Assembly (NCBI RefSeq): GCF_015732285.1
Contig: NZ_WIQU01000022.1
Coordinates: 253,119-317,118 of the forward strand
Source: Pectinatus frisingensis
Lineage (GTDB): Bacteria; Bacillota; Negativicutes; Selenomonadales; Selenomonadaceae
Length of the DNA stretch: 64,000 nucleotides
Reading direction: 5' to 3'
A program made the position numbers and the translations under genes. The first letter of the stretch is position 1. Every line of letters begins with the position of its first letter. Positions 35,623 through 42,640 of the stretch are shown in pieces. Under the pieces are notes generated by a model, which had not been told where the DNA came from, did not search any database, and saw only the letters and a program-made list of their open reading frames with translations.

Positions 35623-36255
35623 ATGCAGATAGACAATATCTCTGCAGTGGGGAGCAATGATAATTTATTATCAGACATGAATAAAGTACAGCAGCGGATA
35701 ACGCAGATCGAAGACAGATTCAACATCAAACATTTTGCGCCGCAGAATGTCGTCGATTTTCAGCAGACACTTACCAAACAGTTGAAAAATGAAACTGATG
35801 GAAATGAAAATGCCGGTGTAAAAAAAAGCGGCAAGTCGGCAAACACAATAGATGCCGCAAGTACACAGGGAAGCCCGGCACCTCAGCAAATAGCTGATTT
35901 GATACGAAAATCAGCAGCCAAGTATGGTATAGATGCCAAATTATTGTCTGCGGTGGCTGAAGCCGAATCCAATTATCATCCCGATGCCGTTTCTTCTGCA
36001 GGCGCAGTCGGTGTCATGCAGCTTATGCCCGATACGGCAGCAGGGCTAGGCGTTACCGATCCTTATGATGCGCAGCAGAATATCGACGGCGGGGCGAAAT
36101 ATCTTAAGGAACTGCTCAATGATTTTGGCGGCAATGTCCGTGATGCCGTAGCTGCTTATAATGCCGGACCGCAGGCTGTAAAAGAATACAACGGCGTACC
36201 GCCATATAGTGAGACACAAAATTATGTCAACCATGTTTTAGATCTGTACCAATAA
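35623..36255 (+). CDS. Lytic transglycosylase (SLT domain) inside the flagellar operon
   Basis: A peptidoglycan-cutting transglycosylase probably used to open the wall for the rod. Residues 1-85 have no signal peptide and no membrane segment; they start MQIDNISAVGSNDNLL and are partly coiled and then Ser/Lys-rich. Residues about 88-208 are a complete Slt-type lysozyme fold: LSAVAEAESNYHP with the likely catalytic Glu115, GAVGVMQLMPDTA, and AAYNAGPQAVKEYNGVP. GGGGGAAAG precedes the ATG. Between fliJ and the MotE-like gene; in B. subtilis these are adjacent. Export through the flagellar gate itself, as for proteobacterial FlgJ, is an inference. Confidence 0.9.
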   Translation: MQIDNISAVGSNDNLLSDMNKVQQRITQIEDRFNIKHFAPQNVVDFQQTLTKQLKNETDGNENAGVKKSGKSANTIDAASTQGSPAPQQIADLIRKSAAKYGIDAKLLSAVAEAESNYHPDAVSSAGAVGVMQLMPDTAAGLGVTDPYDAQQNIDGGAKYLKELLNDFGGNVRDAVAAYNAGPQAVKEYNGVPPYSETQNYVNHVLDLYQ

Positions 36256-36283
36256 AAAATATCTTGCTAACTTACGAAATAGA

Positions 36284-36312
36284 TTGCAATTATTTTTATT
36301 ATAGTATATTAT
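36284..36312 (+). promoter_or_regulatory. Internal promoter before the MotE-like gene
   Basis: TTGCAA (36284-36289), 17-base spacer, TATTAT (36307-36312). A CTTGCT/AGCAAG inverted repeat flanks it (near 36263 and 36318). It would allow transcription from within the flagellar operon. Confidence 0.58.
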
Positions 36313-36336
36313 TTTTTCAGCAAGGCGGGTGAGTCG

Positions 36337-37035
36337 ATGGCAGGGAATTCAGCAAACTTAACTGCCGGACGATTGGCAAAAGATGCAGCAGCAAAAGATG
36401 CTGTTCAGCAAGAAAATACACCGGAAAGTAAACCCCATAAGACTAAAAAGGCTTTGAAACGGTTTTTGATAGTACTTTTGATCGTTATAATATTATTGGG
36501 GGGATTCTTACTCGGTATATACCTGCGGGTTCTGAATACCGATAAACTGAATGACTCGCTGCATCTTTATGATTGGCCGATAATTGGCAAGAGTTTCGTA
36601 AAACCGACCGGTGAATCGTCCGGACAGACCGGCAAAAAGGAAAAAGTAGATGTTGCCGGCAATGATAATCCATCTGGTGCCGAACCGGCAAATGCTCAAC
36701 TGCAGTCAGGACAGCAGTCAAAGCCGGTGGTCCTGACTAAAAAACAGCTGGAACAGCAAAAAAAAGCGCGTGAAGCGGCAATAAACAGTAAAATAGGTAA
36801 AGTAGCCCATATATATGAGCAGATGGATCCTGTAAAAGCTGCTAATATCCTTAATACTTTGAGCAGCAATGTAACAGCATCTGTTTTACAGAAAATGGAT
36901 CCGGCTCGTTCGGCCAAGATACTGGAAAATATGGATTCCAATCAGGCAGCGCAGATAACCCAGGACATTTATAACGGCGTTGCCCCGCCGACCGGAACTC
37001 AAATTGACAGTGCAGTGAACGCCGCACAGCAGTAA
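36337..37035 (+). CDS. MotE/YlxF-like flagellar protein (MgtE-N-like domain)
   Basis: YlxF-type proteins stand between fliJ and fliK in Bacillus; the related MotE protein of alphaproteobacteria is a periplasmic chaperone for MotC. The 232-residue protein has one membrane helix (about residues 42-66, FLIVLLIVIILLGGFLLGIY) after a basic stretch, a Gly/Gln/Asn-rich linker and a C-terminal helical domain (about 145-215) with KVAHIYEQMDPVKAANIL and two KMDPARSAKILENMDS-type repeats as in FliG/MgtE N domains. So most of it should be outside the membrane. Function here is not known. Confidence 0.82.
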   Translation: MAGNSANLTAGRLAKDAAAKDAVQQENTPESKPHKTKKALKRFLIVLLIVIILLGGFLLGIYLRVLNTDKLNDSLHLYDWPIIGKSFVKPTGESSGQTGKKEKVDVAGNDNPSGAEPANAQLQSGQQSKPVVLTKKQLEQQKKAREAAINSKIGKVAHIYEQMDPVKAANILNTLSSNVTASVLQKMDPARSAKILENMDSNQAAQITQDIYNGVAPPTGTQIDSAVNAAQQ

Positions 37036-37039
37036 ACGA

Positions 37040-37068
37040 TTTTCATTATCATTAATATATGATACAAT
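37040..37068 (+). promoter_or_regulatory. Internal promoter before fliK
   Basis: TTTTCA (37040-37045), 17-base spacer ending TGA, TACAAT (37063-37068): a moderate -35 with an extended -10. It lies only 23 bases before the fliK ATG. Confidence 0.5.
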
Positions 37069-37076
37069 TAATGCGA

Positions 37077-37090
37077 AAGGAGGTGATAAT
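37077..37090 (+). promoter_or_regulatory. Unusually strong fliK ribosome binding site
   Basis: AAAGGAGGTGAT is a full-length complement to the 3' end of 16S rRNA (established Firmicutes anti-Shine-Dalgarno), 3 bases before the ATG at 37091. Most genes of the window have only 4-6 matching bases. Confidence 0.85.
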
Positions 37091-38656
37091 ATGGTAACAA
37101 CGACAGCAGACTTATTTGTTAAATCACCTGCCGTTTCTGAATCAGGCAGCAGTCAAAAAACTGCCGTGTCGACACAAGACAGTAATAAATCAACTGGATT
37201 CAGCAGTGTCTTGGATAGTTCTTCGGCTAAAGCGGATAATAATACTGCATCTGTTGGTAAAAATACAGTTCCGATTGTCAGTAAAGCCACATCGGGCGGC
37301 AGCAAAAAGACGGTTGTGTCTGCCAATACGACCGATAGCAGGAAAACTGCCGGTGACAAGGGGAAAGATGAAAGTACGACAACTACTGATAAGCAGGGAA
37401 AATTAAATATAGCAAATGTACTTGATATAAATGTCCTGGCGACGCTTCTGGCGCAGACCGAAACTAAAAATACTGCCGCGACAGGAAACCTCGATCAGCT
37501 GACTGCAGCGGTACTATGGAAAAAAACCAGCAACACAGCTGCAACAACTGCAGCTGTAATACCGGCTGAAACCGGGCAGACGGCAGCAGTGCCCAATAAG
37601 GGACAGATTACTGATTTTCCGACTAGTGTGCTGGAAAATAAACAAACTGTTGTATCGGCGGCAAATCAAGAGACTGTCATGCAGGCTCCTGTGACTAAAC
37701 AGCAGCAGGCGGCAGCTGGCAATTCGCAGCAAAAAACCGGCAGCATTTTGACACTACAGGATTTAACAGCATTATTAAAAAGCATGCCTGAGGCTGATTC
37801 ATCCAAAACAGCTGGACAGACAGCAACAGCGGCAACAGCAGCAAATGTTTTAACAAAAACTTCGACAGTCAATGCACTGCCCGTTGAGCAGGCAATGCAA
37901 AATCTGCCTGCGGCAGATAAAAATCAGGTAAATGGCAAGGATGAAAAGAACAGCACCCCGGTGACAATCAATGTTATTGATCTGACCAATAATCAGGCAG
38001 TAAGAACGGATGATTCTTCATTGGAAAACCATGCCAACCAGAACAGTCTGACACAGGGAAATTTGACAGGCAGTTCAGATGATAAAACCGGTAAAATGAC
38101 GGATGCCACTACTAATACAGCTGCTTTGAATTTTGCCTTGCCGGTGAAGGACAATATAGCTGATACAGCAGCTGCACAGCCCAAGGCTGCCCAGCAAAAT
38201 CAGCAGGCTTACGATATTGCCGGCCAGATAGTAAAAAATGCCCAGCTGATCAAGGCCAACGACAATTCACAGATGGTTATCAATCTGCAGCCGGAGCATC
38301 TGGGAGAATTATCCCTCAAAATCACCGTGCAGGCGGACGGTGTCGTTAACGCGTCTTTTCACAGTGATAATGCACAGGTACGCAATATCATCCAGGCCTC
38401 TGTGGTACAGCTGCGGCAGGATCTGCAGGAGCAGGGTATTAAAGTTGATAATATCAATGTCTACAGCGGTCTCAGTGACTTGATGTCAAACGGACAGAAT
38501 GGTTCCGGCCAATTCGCCCAAAATAACAAAAAATCGGCTTACCGGATAAACCAGCTGACAGATGCTGCCGGTCAGATGGAAGACTTTGATACAATAACAA
38601 GTGTTATAGGACAGAATTCCTCACAGGAAAGTGAAGGAATCGATTATAAAATTTGA
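37091..38656 (+). CDS. fliK: Flagellar hook-length control protein FliK
   Basis: FliK measures hook length and switches the export gate from hook to filament substrates. The 521-residue protein has a long low-complexity N-terminal two-thirds rich in Thr, Ser, Ala, Asn and Gln (the ruler part), and a folded C-terminal domain (about residues 385-465) with QMVINLQPEHLGELSLKITV and VVQLRQDLQEQGIKVDNINVYS, which is the Flg_hook signature. From here to flgE the codons are richer in G+C than in the neighbours. Confidence 0.94.
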   Translation: MVTTTADLFVKSPAVSESGSSQKTAVSTQDSNKSTGFSSVLDSSSAKADNNTASVGKNTVPIVSKATSGGSKKTVVSANTTDSRKTAGDKGKDESTTTTDKQGKLNIANVLDINVLATLLAQTETKNTAATGNLDQLTAAVLWKKTSNTAATTAAVIPAETGQTAAVPNKGQITDFPTSVLENKQTVVSAANQETVMQAPVTKQQQAAAGNSQQKTGSILTLQDLTALLKSMPEADSSKTAGQTATAATAANVLTKTSTVNALPVEQAMQNLPAADKNQVNGKDEKNSTPVTINVIDLTNNQAVRTDDSSLENHANQNSLTQGNLTGSSDDKTGKMTDATTNTAALNFALPVKDNIADTAAAQPKAAQQNQQAYDIAGQIVKNAQLIKANDNSQMVINLQPEHLGELSLKITVQADGVVNASFHSDNAQVRNIIQASVVQLRQDLQEQGIKVDNINVYSGLSDLMSNGQNGSGQFAQNNKKSAYRINQLTDAAGQMEDFDTITSVIGQNSSQESEGIDYKI

Positions 38657-38672
38657 ACAGGAGTGGATTAAT

Positions 38673-39182
38673 ATGGCGACAAGTGCTATTACACCGACAA
38701 CGGCTTCATCGACAGGTACAACAGCAGCTAAGAGTACAGGAACCGACTCTAATACGCTGGCTAATGAAGATACTTTTATGCAGCTTTTAGTGGCTCAGAT
38801 GAAAAATCAGGATCCGTTGAATCCTATGGATGGGACACAATATGTTTCACAGCTTTCACAGCTCACTTCGACCGAACAGATTTCCAAGATGGCAACGGCA
38901 ATGAATACGATGTCTACCGTAGTTGACAACTTGAATACTTCGGTATTGGTAGGACAGCTAAGTTCGATGATGGGAAAAAATGTTACATGGGTCACCAATA
39001 AGACAATCACTGCTGCCGATGGTACTACATCCACCCAGAAAGTACAGCATTCCGGCGTGGTCCAGGGCGTTACAATAAGTGATGGAACACCTTCACTGGT
39101 TGTCAAAGAAGGCAGCGGAGTTACTACTGTAAGCGTCAGCGATCTGACACTCATTGGCAATACAGGCTTGGAAAATTCTTAA
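38673..39182 (+). CDS. flgD: Flagellar hook scaffolding (cap) protein FlgD
   Basis: FlgD caps the growing hook. The 169-residue product has the hallmark EDTFMQLLVAQMKNQDPLNPMDGTQYVSQLSQLTS-type N-terminal region (landmarks FMQLLVAQMKNQDPLNP) and a short C-terminal part without the large Ig domain, as in the Bacillus form. The open frame reaches back into fliK, but the ATG at 38673 follows CAGGAGTGG and gives the normal start. Confidence 0.95.
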   Translation: MATSAITPTTASSTGTTAAKSTGTDSNTLANEDTFMQLLVAQMKNQDPLNPMDGTQYVSQLSQLTSTEQISKMATAMNTMSTVVDNLNTSVLVGQLSSMMGKNVTWVTNKTITAADGTTSTQKVQHSGVVQGVTISDGTPSLVVKEGSGVTTVSVSDLTLIGNTGLENS

Positions 39183-39208
39183 ACAGCGCGGCGGGGAGGT
39201 AAATATAT

Positions 39209-39592
39209 ATGGCAAATCCACAAATATATTTGCAGCCATTTATGCCGGTAAACAATCAAAACAATGTATCAGTTCATGCTGCTAATAATAACAAAAAGTC
39301 TGTGCAAAGCTTTGCGGACGTATTAAAAGACACTACACAAGAGGTCAGTTTTTCCCAGCATGCACTCAAACGGATGAAAGAAAGAAATATAACATTGACT
39401 GACGCGGCAAGGGAAAAGCTAAATGATACGGTAAGCAAAATGGCACAAAAAGGGGCGCGGGAAGCGCTTATATACTTAAAAAATACAGCTTTTGTTGTAA
39501 GTGTGGCAAATAAAACTGTAATTACCGCCATGGATGGTGAAAATGCAAAGGATAACATATTTACTAATATTGATAGTGCAGCTATTTTATAA
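39209..39592 (+). CDS. TIGR02530-type flagellar operon protein
   Basis: Small conserved protein coded between flgD and flgE in many Firmicutes; its role is not established. The 127-residue product has a free N-terminal tail and a conserved core (about residues 45-120) with VSFSQHALKRMKERNITLTD, MAQKGAREALIYLKNTAFVVSV and KTVITAMDGENAKDNIFTNIDSA. No signal peptide. Possibly a hook-assembly factor or export substrate, inferred only from position. GGGGAGG precedes the ATG. Confidence 0.85.
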   Translation: MANPQIYLQPFMPVNNQNNVSVHAANNNKKSVQSFADVLKDTTQEVSFSQHALKRMKERNITLTDAAREKLNDTVSKMAQKGAREALIYLKNTAFVVSVANKTVITAMDGENAKDNIFTNIDSAAIL

Positions 39593-39668
39593 AACCGGAC
39601 CTTCGGGAAGTTTTGGCTGTTGAATGACAGAGACAGCCTGCTGCACAACAGAAGGAGCTTGATTAATT

Positions 39669-41750
39669 ATGATGAGATCTTTGTTTACGGCCGTTTCCGG
39701 TCTAAAGAACCACCAGACCAGAATGGACGTAATCGGCAATAATATTGCCAATGTAAATACCACCGGCTATAAATCAAGCCGGGTGACTTTCGCTGATACC
39801 CTTAGCCAGACCTTATCCGGGGCGTCTTCATCCAACGGCAATGTCGGCGGGGTAGATGCCAAACAGGTTGGTCTGGGAATGTCGGTATCGTCCATAGATA
39901 CCAACTTCACACACGGCAGTGCCTCATCCACCGGCAACAATACGGATATGGCAATCGACACTGATAATGGGCTTTTTGTGGTAAAAGACGGTGACAACAC
40001 TTACTACACCCGTAATGGTAACTTTACCCTCGACGATGACGGCAGCCTGGTAATGAACGGCAGCGGCCTTCACTTGCAGGGCTGGAACGCGACCGACGGC
40101 AGCGTGAATCCCAGCGGCGACACGCAGAACCTCAAGATCAACATGAATTCGACAATGCAGCCAAAGCCGACTTCAACGGTCGCTTCAAGCGGTAATTTAT
40201 CGGCTGATGATAAATCAGAAACAATAAAAAATATAAAACTGACACTGGCGGATGGCACAACAGTATCAGTACCGTCCACTGACACCAGCACGGCATATCA
40301 TATAGGCGACACTGTAGATAAGAATAAGGTGGTTTTAATAAATGCGACCTTGGCGGATGGTTCTACTGTTCCCTTGACATCAGGAGGTCCCTTTAAGGCA
40401 GGTGGTTATCCGCCTTCAAACCAATTTGGTAATGTTAGTGGAATTGATCTTACCTTTGCGGATGGCAGCACTGCTACTGGAGTATCTGGCTTCACTTATA
40501 AAACAGGATATTCACCTATTATAAATAAAATAACGTTAAAATTTTCGGATAATTCTACTGTCGACGAATCAAGTGGTAGTTATAAAGTGGGAGATACTGT
40601 TGGTGGAAAAACGATATTAAGTATGACTGCTACTGATGGTACAACAACGTTTACTATACCAAGTAGCAGTACATCAACTTATACAGTGGGCATCGCATAT
40701 CCTAGTACTGTGTCAACTATGGCTGTCACGTATTACAATTCTGGTAATTCTGGGGCAACCACAAAGACGTCTGCATTGACAACATCACAGATAGATTCGT
40801 CTGGTTATACTATAGGTAATCCATATCAAAGCAAAATAACGGGAATAATTCCGACCACATTAGGCGGGACTACGGCGCCCACGGCTGATACGGATCCGGC
40901 TCATTTATATACTATCGATAGCAGTGATTATCCATATGGTACTCCGGATAATAGTACTATAAGCGGTATGACCTTGACTTTGTCTGATGGCACTAATAGC
41001 ACAACAAGCTCAGGTGTATATGGCAGCAGCTATACCTTGGGCGGGAGCACTTACCCAAGCTATGCGACCACGGCAACAGTATATGACAGTCTGGGTGCCG
41101 CACATTCTGTTCCGGTTTCATTCCAGCGTACATCAGGCACCGGCGATACCTGGCTGGCCAGTGTGGCTCCGGGTACCTATGGCACTTTGACGATTCCTTC
41201 CGGGGTGACCCAGACGCTGACCTTTGACGGCAGTACAGGAAAGCTGACATCAGGCGGTTCAATGACTGTCGGCATGACTGTGCCATATCCTAACGGTGCT
41301 ACACAGAACCAGCAGATATCAATCGATTTCAGCAATCTGACACAATACTCCGGTGAAAATAATGCCAGTGCCACCGGCGACGGCTATGCTGCCGGTTTTT
41401 ACAAGGACATGTCGATAGGCCAGGACGGTGTCATAACGATAAGCTATACCAATGGACAAAAGCAGACTGGCGGACAGATCGCCATTGCCTCTTTCAATAA
41501 TCCGGCAGGCTTGGAAAAAGAAGGCGGCAGCCTTTATTCACAGTCAAATAACTCCGGTACAGCCCGTGTAGGTACGTTTACGGCCCAGGGCGTGACAGTT
41601 ACACCTGGGGCATTGGAAATGTCCAATGTCGATATTTCCAATGAGTTCAGTGATATGATCGTCACCCAGCGTGGCTTCCAGGCCAATTCCAAAATTATCA
41701 CAGTATCCGATGAGATGCTTCAGACTCTTATCAATATGAAACAGTCTTGA
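39669..41750 (+). CDS. flgE: Flagellar hook protein FlgE with large repeat-containing insertion
   Basis: FlgE builds the hook, the universal joint. The 693-residue protein is long for the family (often 260-450). Residues 1-175 (SLFTAVSGLKNHQTRMDVIGNNIANVNTTGYKS; AIDTDNGLFVV) and about 470-693 (ending SNVDISNEFSDMIVTQRGFQANSKII) are ordinary hook sequence. Between them, about residues 186-467, lies a stretch of some eight degenerate repeats of 30-40 residues around the pattern I.x.ITL.F.DGST...G.Y..G..Y. Its DNA is visibly more AT-rich than both flanks, suggesting a separate evolutionary history for this surface domain. Two ATGs are in tandem at the start. Confidence 0.94.
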   Translation: MMRSLFTAVSGLKNHQTRMDVIGNNIANVNTTGYKSSRVTFADTLSQTLSGASSSNGNVGGVDAKQVGLGMSVSSIDTNFTHGSASSTGNNTDMAIDTDNGLFVVKDGDNTYYTRNGNFTLDDDGSLVMNGSGLHLQGWNATDGSVNPSGDTQNLKINMNSTMQPKPTSTVASSGNLSADDKSETIKNIKLTLADGTTVSVPSTDTSTAYHIGDTVDKNKVVLINATLADGSTVPLTSGGPFKAGGYPPSNQFGNVSGIDLTFADGSTATGVSGFTYKTGYSPIINKITLKFSDNSTVDESSGSYKVGDTVGGKTILSMTATDGTTTFTIPSSSTSTYTVGIAYPSTVSTMAVTYYNSGNSGATTKTSALTTSQIDSSGYTIGNPYQSKITGIIPTTLGGTTAPTADTDPAHLYTIDSSDYPYGTPDNSTISGMTLTLSDGTNSTTSSGVYGSSYTLGGSTYPSYATTATVYDSLGAAHSVPVSFQRTSGTGDTWLASVAPGTYGTLTIPSGVTQTLTFDGSTGKLTSGGSMTVGMTVPYPNGATQNQQISIDFSNLTQYSGENNASATGDGYAAGFYKDMSIGQDGVITISYTNGQKQTGGQIAIASFNNPAGLEKEGGSLYSQSNNSGTARVGTFTAQGVTVTPGALEMSNVDISNEFSDMIVTQRGFQANSKIITVSDEMLQTLINMKQS
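40224..41067 (+). repeat. Degenerate DGST-type repeat array coding the FlgE surface domain
   Basis: Successive units begin IKNIKLTLADGTT, VLINATLADGST, VSGIDLTFADGST, INKITLKFSDNST, ILSMTATDGTT, VSTMAVTYYNSG, ITGIIPTTLGGTT and ISGMTLTLSDGTN; most close with a Y(K/T/H)xG turn. The units are related in protein but not identical in DNA, so they are old duplications. Confidence 0.75.
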
Positions 41751-41764
41751 TTTTTATGAAGGGA

Positions 41765-41800
41765 CAGGGGAGAACGATTCTCCCCTTGCCTTTTATTTTT
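41765..41800 (+). terminator. Intrinsic terminator inside the flagellar operon, after flgE
   Basis: Stem AGGGGAGAA / TTCTCCCCT with a CGA loop, then TTGCCTTTTATTTTT. It is as good as those ending other units of the window, so part of the transcripts should stop after the hook gene. A TATAAT lies just beyond at 41812-41817. Confidence 0.78.
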
Positions 41801-41848
41801 CGATGTTTTAATATAATGCTTATACATCAATTATAATTGGAGAACGTT

Positions 41849-42049
41849 ATGATAAAATTAACAAAATTTAATTCTGAGTCAAATAAAAAAGGAGAATTCG
41901 TTCTCAATGCGGAAATAATTGAAACTATAGAACAAACTCCTGATACGGTCATCACCTTGTTGAACGGCAAAAAAATAATTGTCGATGAAAAAATGGATGA
42001 AGTAGTACGGCGGGTAATGCTTTATCGCCGTGCGTTACATAAGTATTAA
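41849..42049 (+). CDS. flbD: Flagellar protein FlbD
   Basis: FlbD (YlzI in Bacillus) is a small conserved protein of unknown exact role coded after flgE. The 66-residue product has MIKLTKFNS, FVLNAEIIETIEQTPDTVITLLNGKKIIV and the VVRRVMLYRR ending of the family. The open frame starts at a TTG four codons earlier, but TGGAGAA is spaced for the ATG at 41849. It is the first gene after the internal terminator. Confidence 0.93.
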   Translation: MIKLTKFNSESNKKGEFVLNAEIIETIEQTPDTVITLLNGKKIIVDEKMDEVVRRVMLYRRALHKY

Positions 42050-42058
42050 TGGAAAATA

Positions 42059-42092
42059 ATACAGTGTTTTTTACAAAATGATACTGTATAAT
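42059..42092 (+). repeat. Inverted repeat overlapping a -10-like box before fliL
   Basis: ATACAGT (42059-42065) and ACTGTAT (42083-42089), 17-base loop, the second arm running into TATAAT (42087-42092). The -35 is poor. It could be an operator or a weak hairpin. Confidence 0.4.
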
Positions 42093-42127
42093 ATAAAAAG
42101 AACTGCATACAAGGAAGGTGTGGTAAC

Positions 42128-42640
42128 ATGGCGAAAGAGGAAGTCGTTAACGATAATAATGGTGAAGACAGCGGCCAGAAAAAAGGAAAACCGACGGTCA
42201 TGATCATTGTGATAGTTTTGCTGGGATTGGTTCTGGCCGGCGGGATATCATATTTTGTGACGACTAAAGTAGTCAGCAGGACAAACGTTGCATCGCCAAT
42301 TAAAAAGGAACCAGGGGTATTTGTAAAAGTCGGTGATCCGAAAGACGGCACTGTTATAGTTAATGTCGGCGGTGTTAAATCCGGCCGTTACTTGAAAATT
42401 GGCATTGTACTGGAGATGAATCCGGCTGATGAAGTTAATTTCAAGGATAAGAAGTTGACAGATAACGCTCAAGCTAAAGTGCTCGATGCAGTGATGGGAA
42501 CATTGCGCGGTCAAAGCATGGATCAATTTGAAGCTGCCAATGAAGCTAAACTAAAGGATGCAATCAAGGAACAGGTCAATTCTGCCATAGGTGACGGCAG
42601 CGTCTATAATGTTTATATAACCAGCTTTGTCCTGCAGTAA
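42128..42640 (+). CDS. fliL: Flagellar basal body-associated protein FliL
   Basis: FliL surrounds the stator and supports torque. The 170-residue product has a short charged cytoplasmic start, one membrane helix (about residues 24-46, VMIIVIVLLGLVLAGGISYFV) and an extracytoplasmic domain with VGDPKDGTVIVNVGG, RYLKIGIVLEM and KDAIKEQVNSAIGDGSVYNVYITSFVLQ. AAGGAAGG lies upstream of the ATG. Standard place before fliM. Confidence 0.94.
   Translation: MAKEEVVNDNNGEDSGQKKGKPTVMIIVIVLLGLVLAGGISYFVTTKVVSRTNVASPIKKEPGVFVKVGDPKDGTVIVNVGGVKSGRYLKIGIVLEMNPADEVNFKDKKLTDNAQAKVLDAVMGTLRGQSMDQFEAANEAKLKDAIKEQVNSAIGDGSVYNVYITSFVLQ

Follow-up and report, generated by a model that had tools for sequence, protein, structure and literature searches.

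An eight-unit repeat domain in the D2 slot of the flagellar hook protein FlgE of Pectinatus frisingensis

The window analysed in this study, a 64,000-nucleotide stretch of the genome of Pectinatus frisingensis, contains a gene for the flagellar hook protein FlgE (Table 1), located among open reading frames that, read by eye, resemble FliK, FlgD, FliL and FliM. The Pfam models Flg_bb_rod, FlgE/F/G D1, FlgE_D2 and Flg_bbr_C all matched the ends of the protein above their cut-offs and in that order, and no credible Pfam match was found within the long insert that separates these ends. The protein exceeded the cut-off of the subfamily model FlgEFG and missed that of the NCBIfam FlgE equivalog (best PRK05682.1-5, 361.8 bits vs. 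469 required), a shortfall that we attribute to the long insert and to species distance. It was classed as FlgE by domain content, given that D2 is present, that its best matches among solved structures are FlgE, and that shorter FlgF/FlgG-like genes occur elsewhere. The genome has no second flgE; its remaining matches are shorter rod-type proteins (FlgF/FlgG-like) coded on another contig. Phylogenetically, the core of the protein clustered with those of P. cerevisiiphilus and other Pectinatus members with full support, locating the genome in this genus of Selenomonadaceae.

Table 1. Features of the flgE gene of P. frisingensis (positions in the window; residues of FlgE).
Feature	Position	Strand	Evidence
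flgE, flagellar hook protein, 693 aa	39669..41750	+	ORF and Pfam domain matches
Residues 1-183: D0 N-terminal part, D1 first half, D2 first strand (residues about 165-183)	39669..40217	+	Pfam; model alignment to FlgE D1-D2 of known hooks; GC3 0.607
Repeat unit 1 (residues 184-219), identifiable in P. haikarae	40218..40325	+	Unit alignment; relatives' profile; pLDDT mostly 75-89
Repeat unit 2 (residues 220-253)	40326..40427	+	Unit alignment; relatives' profile; low pLDDT
Repeat unit 3 (residues 254-283)	40428..40517	+	Unit alignment; relatives' profile; low pLDDT
Repeat unit 4 (residues 284-313)	40518..40607	+	Unit alignment; relatives' profile; genome search with unit profile
Repeat unit 5 (residues 314-346), degenerate	40608..40706	+	Unit alignment; genome search with unit profile
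Repeat unit 6 (residues 347-387), the most degenerate unit	40707..40829	+	Unit alignment
Repeat unit 7 (residues 388-428), degenerate	40830..40952	+	Unit alignment; genome search with unit profile
Repeat unit 8 (residues 429-464), widespread in family, adjoins D2	40953..41060	+	Family and genome profile searches; pLDDT 70-88
Residues 467-693: remaining D2, D1 second half, D0 C-terminal helix	41067..41747	+	Pfam; GC3 0.524; structure matches

The insert comprises 283 residues (184-466), of which residues 184-464 (positions 40218-41060) form eight degenerate units of 36, 34, 30, 30, 33, 41, 41 and 36 residues (range 30-41 aa). Their core reads ITLTLSDGTTxTxTSGxYTVGDSxP, and the consensus obtained after iteration over relatives is ITLTLSDGTTVTVTSGGTYTVGDSYP. 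An eight-unit repeat within about 280 residues of FlgE (positions 40224-41067, i.e. residues 186-467) had been proposed in a preliminary description of this DNA, and was borne out by both shuffled sequences and profile searches. The mean pairwise score between units was 36.9, compared with 22.0 +/- 1.0 in 500 shuffles, a margin somewhat inflated because the units were cut by hand. A profile built from relatives outside the genus, containing no Pectinatus sequence, matched units 1, 2, 3, 4 and 8 at 7.2-13.4 bits and units 5-7 weakly; on 500 shuffles, its best score was 6.9 bits, with a mean of 0.01 matches of at least 5 bits. Since chance is excluded both by the shuffles and by a profile free of Pectinatus sequence, the repeat is far above random expectation. 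Units 1-4 aligned with units 5-8 at 36% identity over 125 residues (z 7.6 against shuffles), suggesting an old block duplication, and no tandem repeat was detected in the flgE DNA at score 30, so the duplications must be old. A profile search for the unit in the other proteins of the genome returned none at E <= 0.01.

The insert follows the first D2 strand, stops before the motif TVYDSLG and occupies a D3-type slot, preceding the rest of D2. The modelled D1-D2 region matches known FlgE hooks (Z about 21). Against the Campylobacter jejuni hook protein (5jxl), residues 2-185 match residues 1-186 and residues 464-692 match 608-851, and 269 residues of the C. jejuni crystal fragment 5az4 aligned to the model at 2.4 A. 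Against Salmonella FlgE, the matched pieces stop at 163 and resume at 181, leaving a gap that spans Thr167/Pro168, and against the D2 of T. denticola the model D2 spans residues 165-574. Judging from this slot, the insert would face outwards once the hook is assembled.

Extra hook domains in the D2 slot, and their hypervariability, have already been published. The D3 and D4 domains of C. jejuni and the D3 domain of Caulobacter crescentus occupy nearly the same slot with folds unrelated to each other (PMC5069557). The C. jejuni protein (5az4, 5jxl) shares with that of P. frisingensis the slot and a conserved D0-D1-D2 frame, and the sizes are of comparable magnitude (about 280 residues in the Pectinatus insert, about 386 in the C. 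jejuni piece used for grafting); however, its D3 is an alpha/beta barrel and its D4 consists mostly of antiparallel strands, the present repeat is not described there, and no sequence match was found between the Pectinatus insert and C. jejuni D3/D4. The Caulobacter D3 is likewise a single extra domain, in a hook wider than that of Salmonella, but is a half-barrel with short helices, of 145 residues, with no repeat described (PMC5069557). When C. jejuni D3-D4 was grafted into Salmonella FlgE at the Thr167/Pro168 junction, the resulting hooks were functional and thicker, at 25.1 nm; this graft slowed swimming, and a graft of D3 only failed to assemble hooks (PMC5069557), so that extra mass is not always helpful. 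In C. jejuni itself, D3/D4 make contacts within and between protofilaments and contribute to the robustness of the hook (PMC5097172).

Structure prediction gave good confidence for the base of the insert, formed by units 1 and 8 beside D2, and low confidence for the middle units, which are rich in Thr, Ser and Gly (pLDDT mostly <50 in the full-length AlphaFold model and 38-50 in a four-unit model). In the units predicted well, a long strand leads through a DG turn into a short strand, after which comes a loop or further short strands; for the middle units, the low scores demonstrate neither disorder nor a regular array. A Foldseek search with the four-unit model, itself a low-confidence model, returned no match at E <= 0.001. 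The best matches were tudor domains, which at E 0.025 and TM 0.17 are not a credible fold for the array. Glycosylation of the Maf type was also considered; no match to PF01973 was found in the genome, a result of little weight given that the control matched archaeal sequences only, and glycosylation by other systems is possible.

The repeat domain had also been described as differing in base composition from the rest of the gene. The contrast itself is real: the insert has a GC content of 0.419 and a GC3 of 0.314, compared with 0.504 and 0.561 for the ends, whose GC3 is 0.607 over the first 183 codons and 0.524 over the last 227. The view of the insert as the deviant part did not hold, and it is the ends that deviate instead. 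For the 45 further genes counted in the window, pooled GC3 is 0.356, with a maximum of 0.444, and the values expected from amino acid content under background codon usage are 0.335 +/- 0.027 for the insert and 0.363 +/- 0.022 for the ends, while the codon usage of the ends would predict 0.534 for the insert. Observed and expected values agree for the insert but not for the ends, so that the ends constitute the atypical part of flgE. Their raised GC3 is special to P. frisingensis flgE; a codon preference linked to high expression was rejected as its cause, with GC3 values of 0.273 in EF-Tu and 0.362 in flagellin. The flagellar genes around flgE (35623-42640) show a mildly raised GC3 of 0.41-0.44, with the exception of a small gene at 39209-39592 (0.31) and of the flgE insert.

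Codon choice for the same amino acids was compared in 38 genes of the window and of relatives with inserts of at least 100 aa, one gene being represented by two copies with different cuts. The insert was poorer in G+C than the ends in 32 of these genes, significantly so in 27, and never significantly richer. Neighbouring genes were numerous enough for comparison at 19 loci; here the insert fell short of its flanks in 18 and of its neighbours likewise in 18, and no overall difference was found between flanks and neighbours. As the contrast runs in the same direction in relatives, it represents a general property of the D2 slot, and AT-richness is therefore no evidence of acquisition.

Among relatives, the shortest insert at the D2 site has 7 aa and the longest 648 aa under the corrected border rule, which underlies the counts reported here. 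An insert of about 50-70 aa is common and usually contains the last unit; unit 8 is present as a single copy directly before D2 in many FlgE proteins of Selenomonadaceae (Anaerovibrio, Schwartzia, Selenomonas and Pectinatus). The FlgE proteins of these genera share the slot with P. frisingensis, but usually carry one or two units (inserts of 50-130 aa) or a different domain of 220-285 aa. The only relative with a comparably long array of the unit is L119 (genome G017), and it is at this locus (L119:446-3661) that the longest hook protein of this study, of 1072 aa, is coded, its insert spanning 648 aa and comprising many units that resemble one another. Several Selenomonadaceae possess two or more flgE paralogues with different insert sizes, some of them in tandem or divergent pairs (L115, L116 and L118-L125, in genomes G007, G022, G017, G019, G021 and G031).

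Within the genus, three insert types were distinguished in five Pectinatus species, whose conserved ends are 62-82% identical. The insert of P. haikarae (92 aa) corresponds to units 1 and 8 in an alignment where a gap covers most of the remainder, whereas those of the three other species (260-409 aa) are 44-54% identical among themselves (z 19-37) and 31-37% identical to the P. frisingensis insert (z 5-9), although the conserved ends of these three are 62-81% identical to those of P. frisingensis. Searching the five Pectinatus genomes with the unit profile at E <= 0.01 recovered seven units in P. frisingensis FlgE, one match in each of three of the four congeners, corresponding to the last unit of their FlgE, none in P. 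cerevisiiphilus, and no protein other than FlgE in any of them. Thus, the place of the insert is the same among relatives while the domain differs within the genus, and the characterization of the repeat as an old domain, in a slot on the outside of known hooks and variable between relatives, is supported. Mapped onto a tree built from the conserved ends of 84 genes, the four size classes of insert require at least 27 changes, compared with 31-46 for shuffled labels, and even a close pair of genes may differ strongly, as in A. lipolyticus (L039, 263 aa; L055, 422 aa). In a tree based on older borders, with a misplaced end in several genes, support of 92/50 did not fix which lineage of Pectinatus branches first. 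Internal duplications were found in the FlgE of P. cerevisiiphilus, as a tandem module of ~135 aa (L042:3748-4584; 76 of 133 residues identical, 57%), in A. lipolyticus L055 (57/140) and in L119 (87/203).

With a probability of about 0.6, we interpret the insert as a D3-type outer hook domain that was expanded in place by tandem duplication and has a passive structural role in the hook. The domain, lying in the hypervariable D2 slot, would comprise eight repeats of a strand-turn-strand element about 30 residues long, in which units 1 and 8 would represent the conserved base adjoining D2 and the six middle units would have been added by tandem duplication in this lineage. The duplications in P. 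cerevisiiphilus, A. lipolyticus and L119 support growth by this route, and we infer growth rather than loss as the direction of change, although a loss of six units in P. haikarae could be the alternative to a gain here. About 280 extra residues per subunit outside the hook would make it wider, and added contacts between neighbouring FlgE molecules would yield a sturdier, stiffer universal joint. A thicker, sturdier and stiffer hook is the likely role of the domain, judging from the experiments in C. jejuni, and the change in stiffness anticipated in the preliminary description would be a reasonable function by the same analogy.

The main rival explanation is neutral turnover, in which the slot would tolerate any foldable or disordered sequence that permits export and assembly, and slippage or recombination would rebuild it with no or almost no benefit. 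The high turnover and weak phylogenetic signal of the insert size classes, the unrelated folds that fill this slot in Campylobacter and Caulobacter (PMC5069557), and the low pLDDT and Thr/Ser/Gly-rich composition of the middle units are all consistent with this scenario. Nevertheless, the placement of strands and turn within the unit is still recognisable with no repeat left in the DNA, suggesting some purifying selection, and the last unit has been kept in many Selenomonadaceae, so that we regard a neutral array as possible but rather doubtful. Selection from outside represents a lesser rival: phages, predators or host immunity would maintain diversity by favouring swaps of outer domains that alter exposure. 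Pectinatus is, to our knowledge, not a host-bound pathogen, and no receptor or binding activity is known for the domain, which makes this scenario improbable, even though three insert types occur in five species whose ends are still similar and outside selection has been proposed to be reflected in the variable D3/D4 regions of C. jejuni strains (PMC5097172).

Acquisition of the domain by horizontal transfer might be invoked from the sharp GC3 step at both insert borders and from the lack of close homology to the long inserts of the three congeners. The separate acquisition that had been proposed from composition was not sustained, however: insert GC3 matches the local background and it is the ends that deviate, the contrast is general in relatives (18/19 loci), units 1 and 8 belong to the family's own FlgE, and the unit is absent from the other proteins of the genome. 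A transfer from outside is therefore unlikely, and we give it very little credence.

In the open-access literature, we found no account of repeats of a native unit making up a hook domain. Our results indicate that a D3-type hook domain can arise by repetition of a hairpin present at the border of D2, and not by the capture of a foreign fold, and they correct a common inference, in that an AT-rich stretch within a gene need not be a foreign part. Naturally occurring hooks that differ in unit number (0, 1, 2 and 8) but have otherwise similar frames would offer a test of how outer mass sets hook diameter, which is near 25 nm in C. jejuni and 18 nm in Salmonella, and bending stiffness. More tentatively, the outer hook layer of Selenomonadaceae might constitute a modular surface, rebuilt from a native hairpin by duplication and swapping within genera, which would tune or diversify hook thickness or the exposed surface in each species, in the manner of flagellin outer domains.
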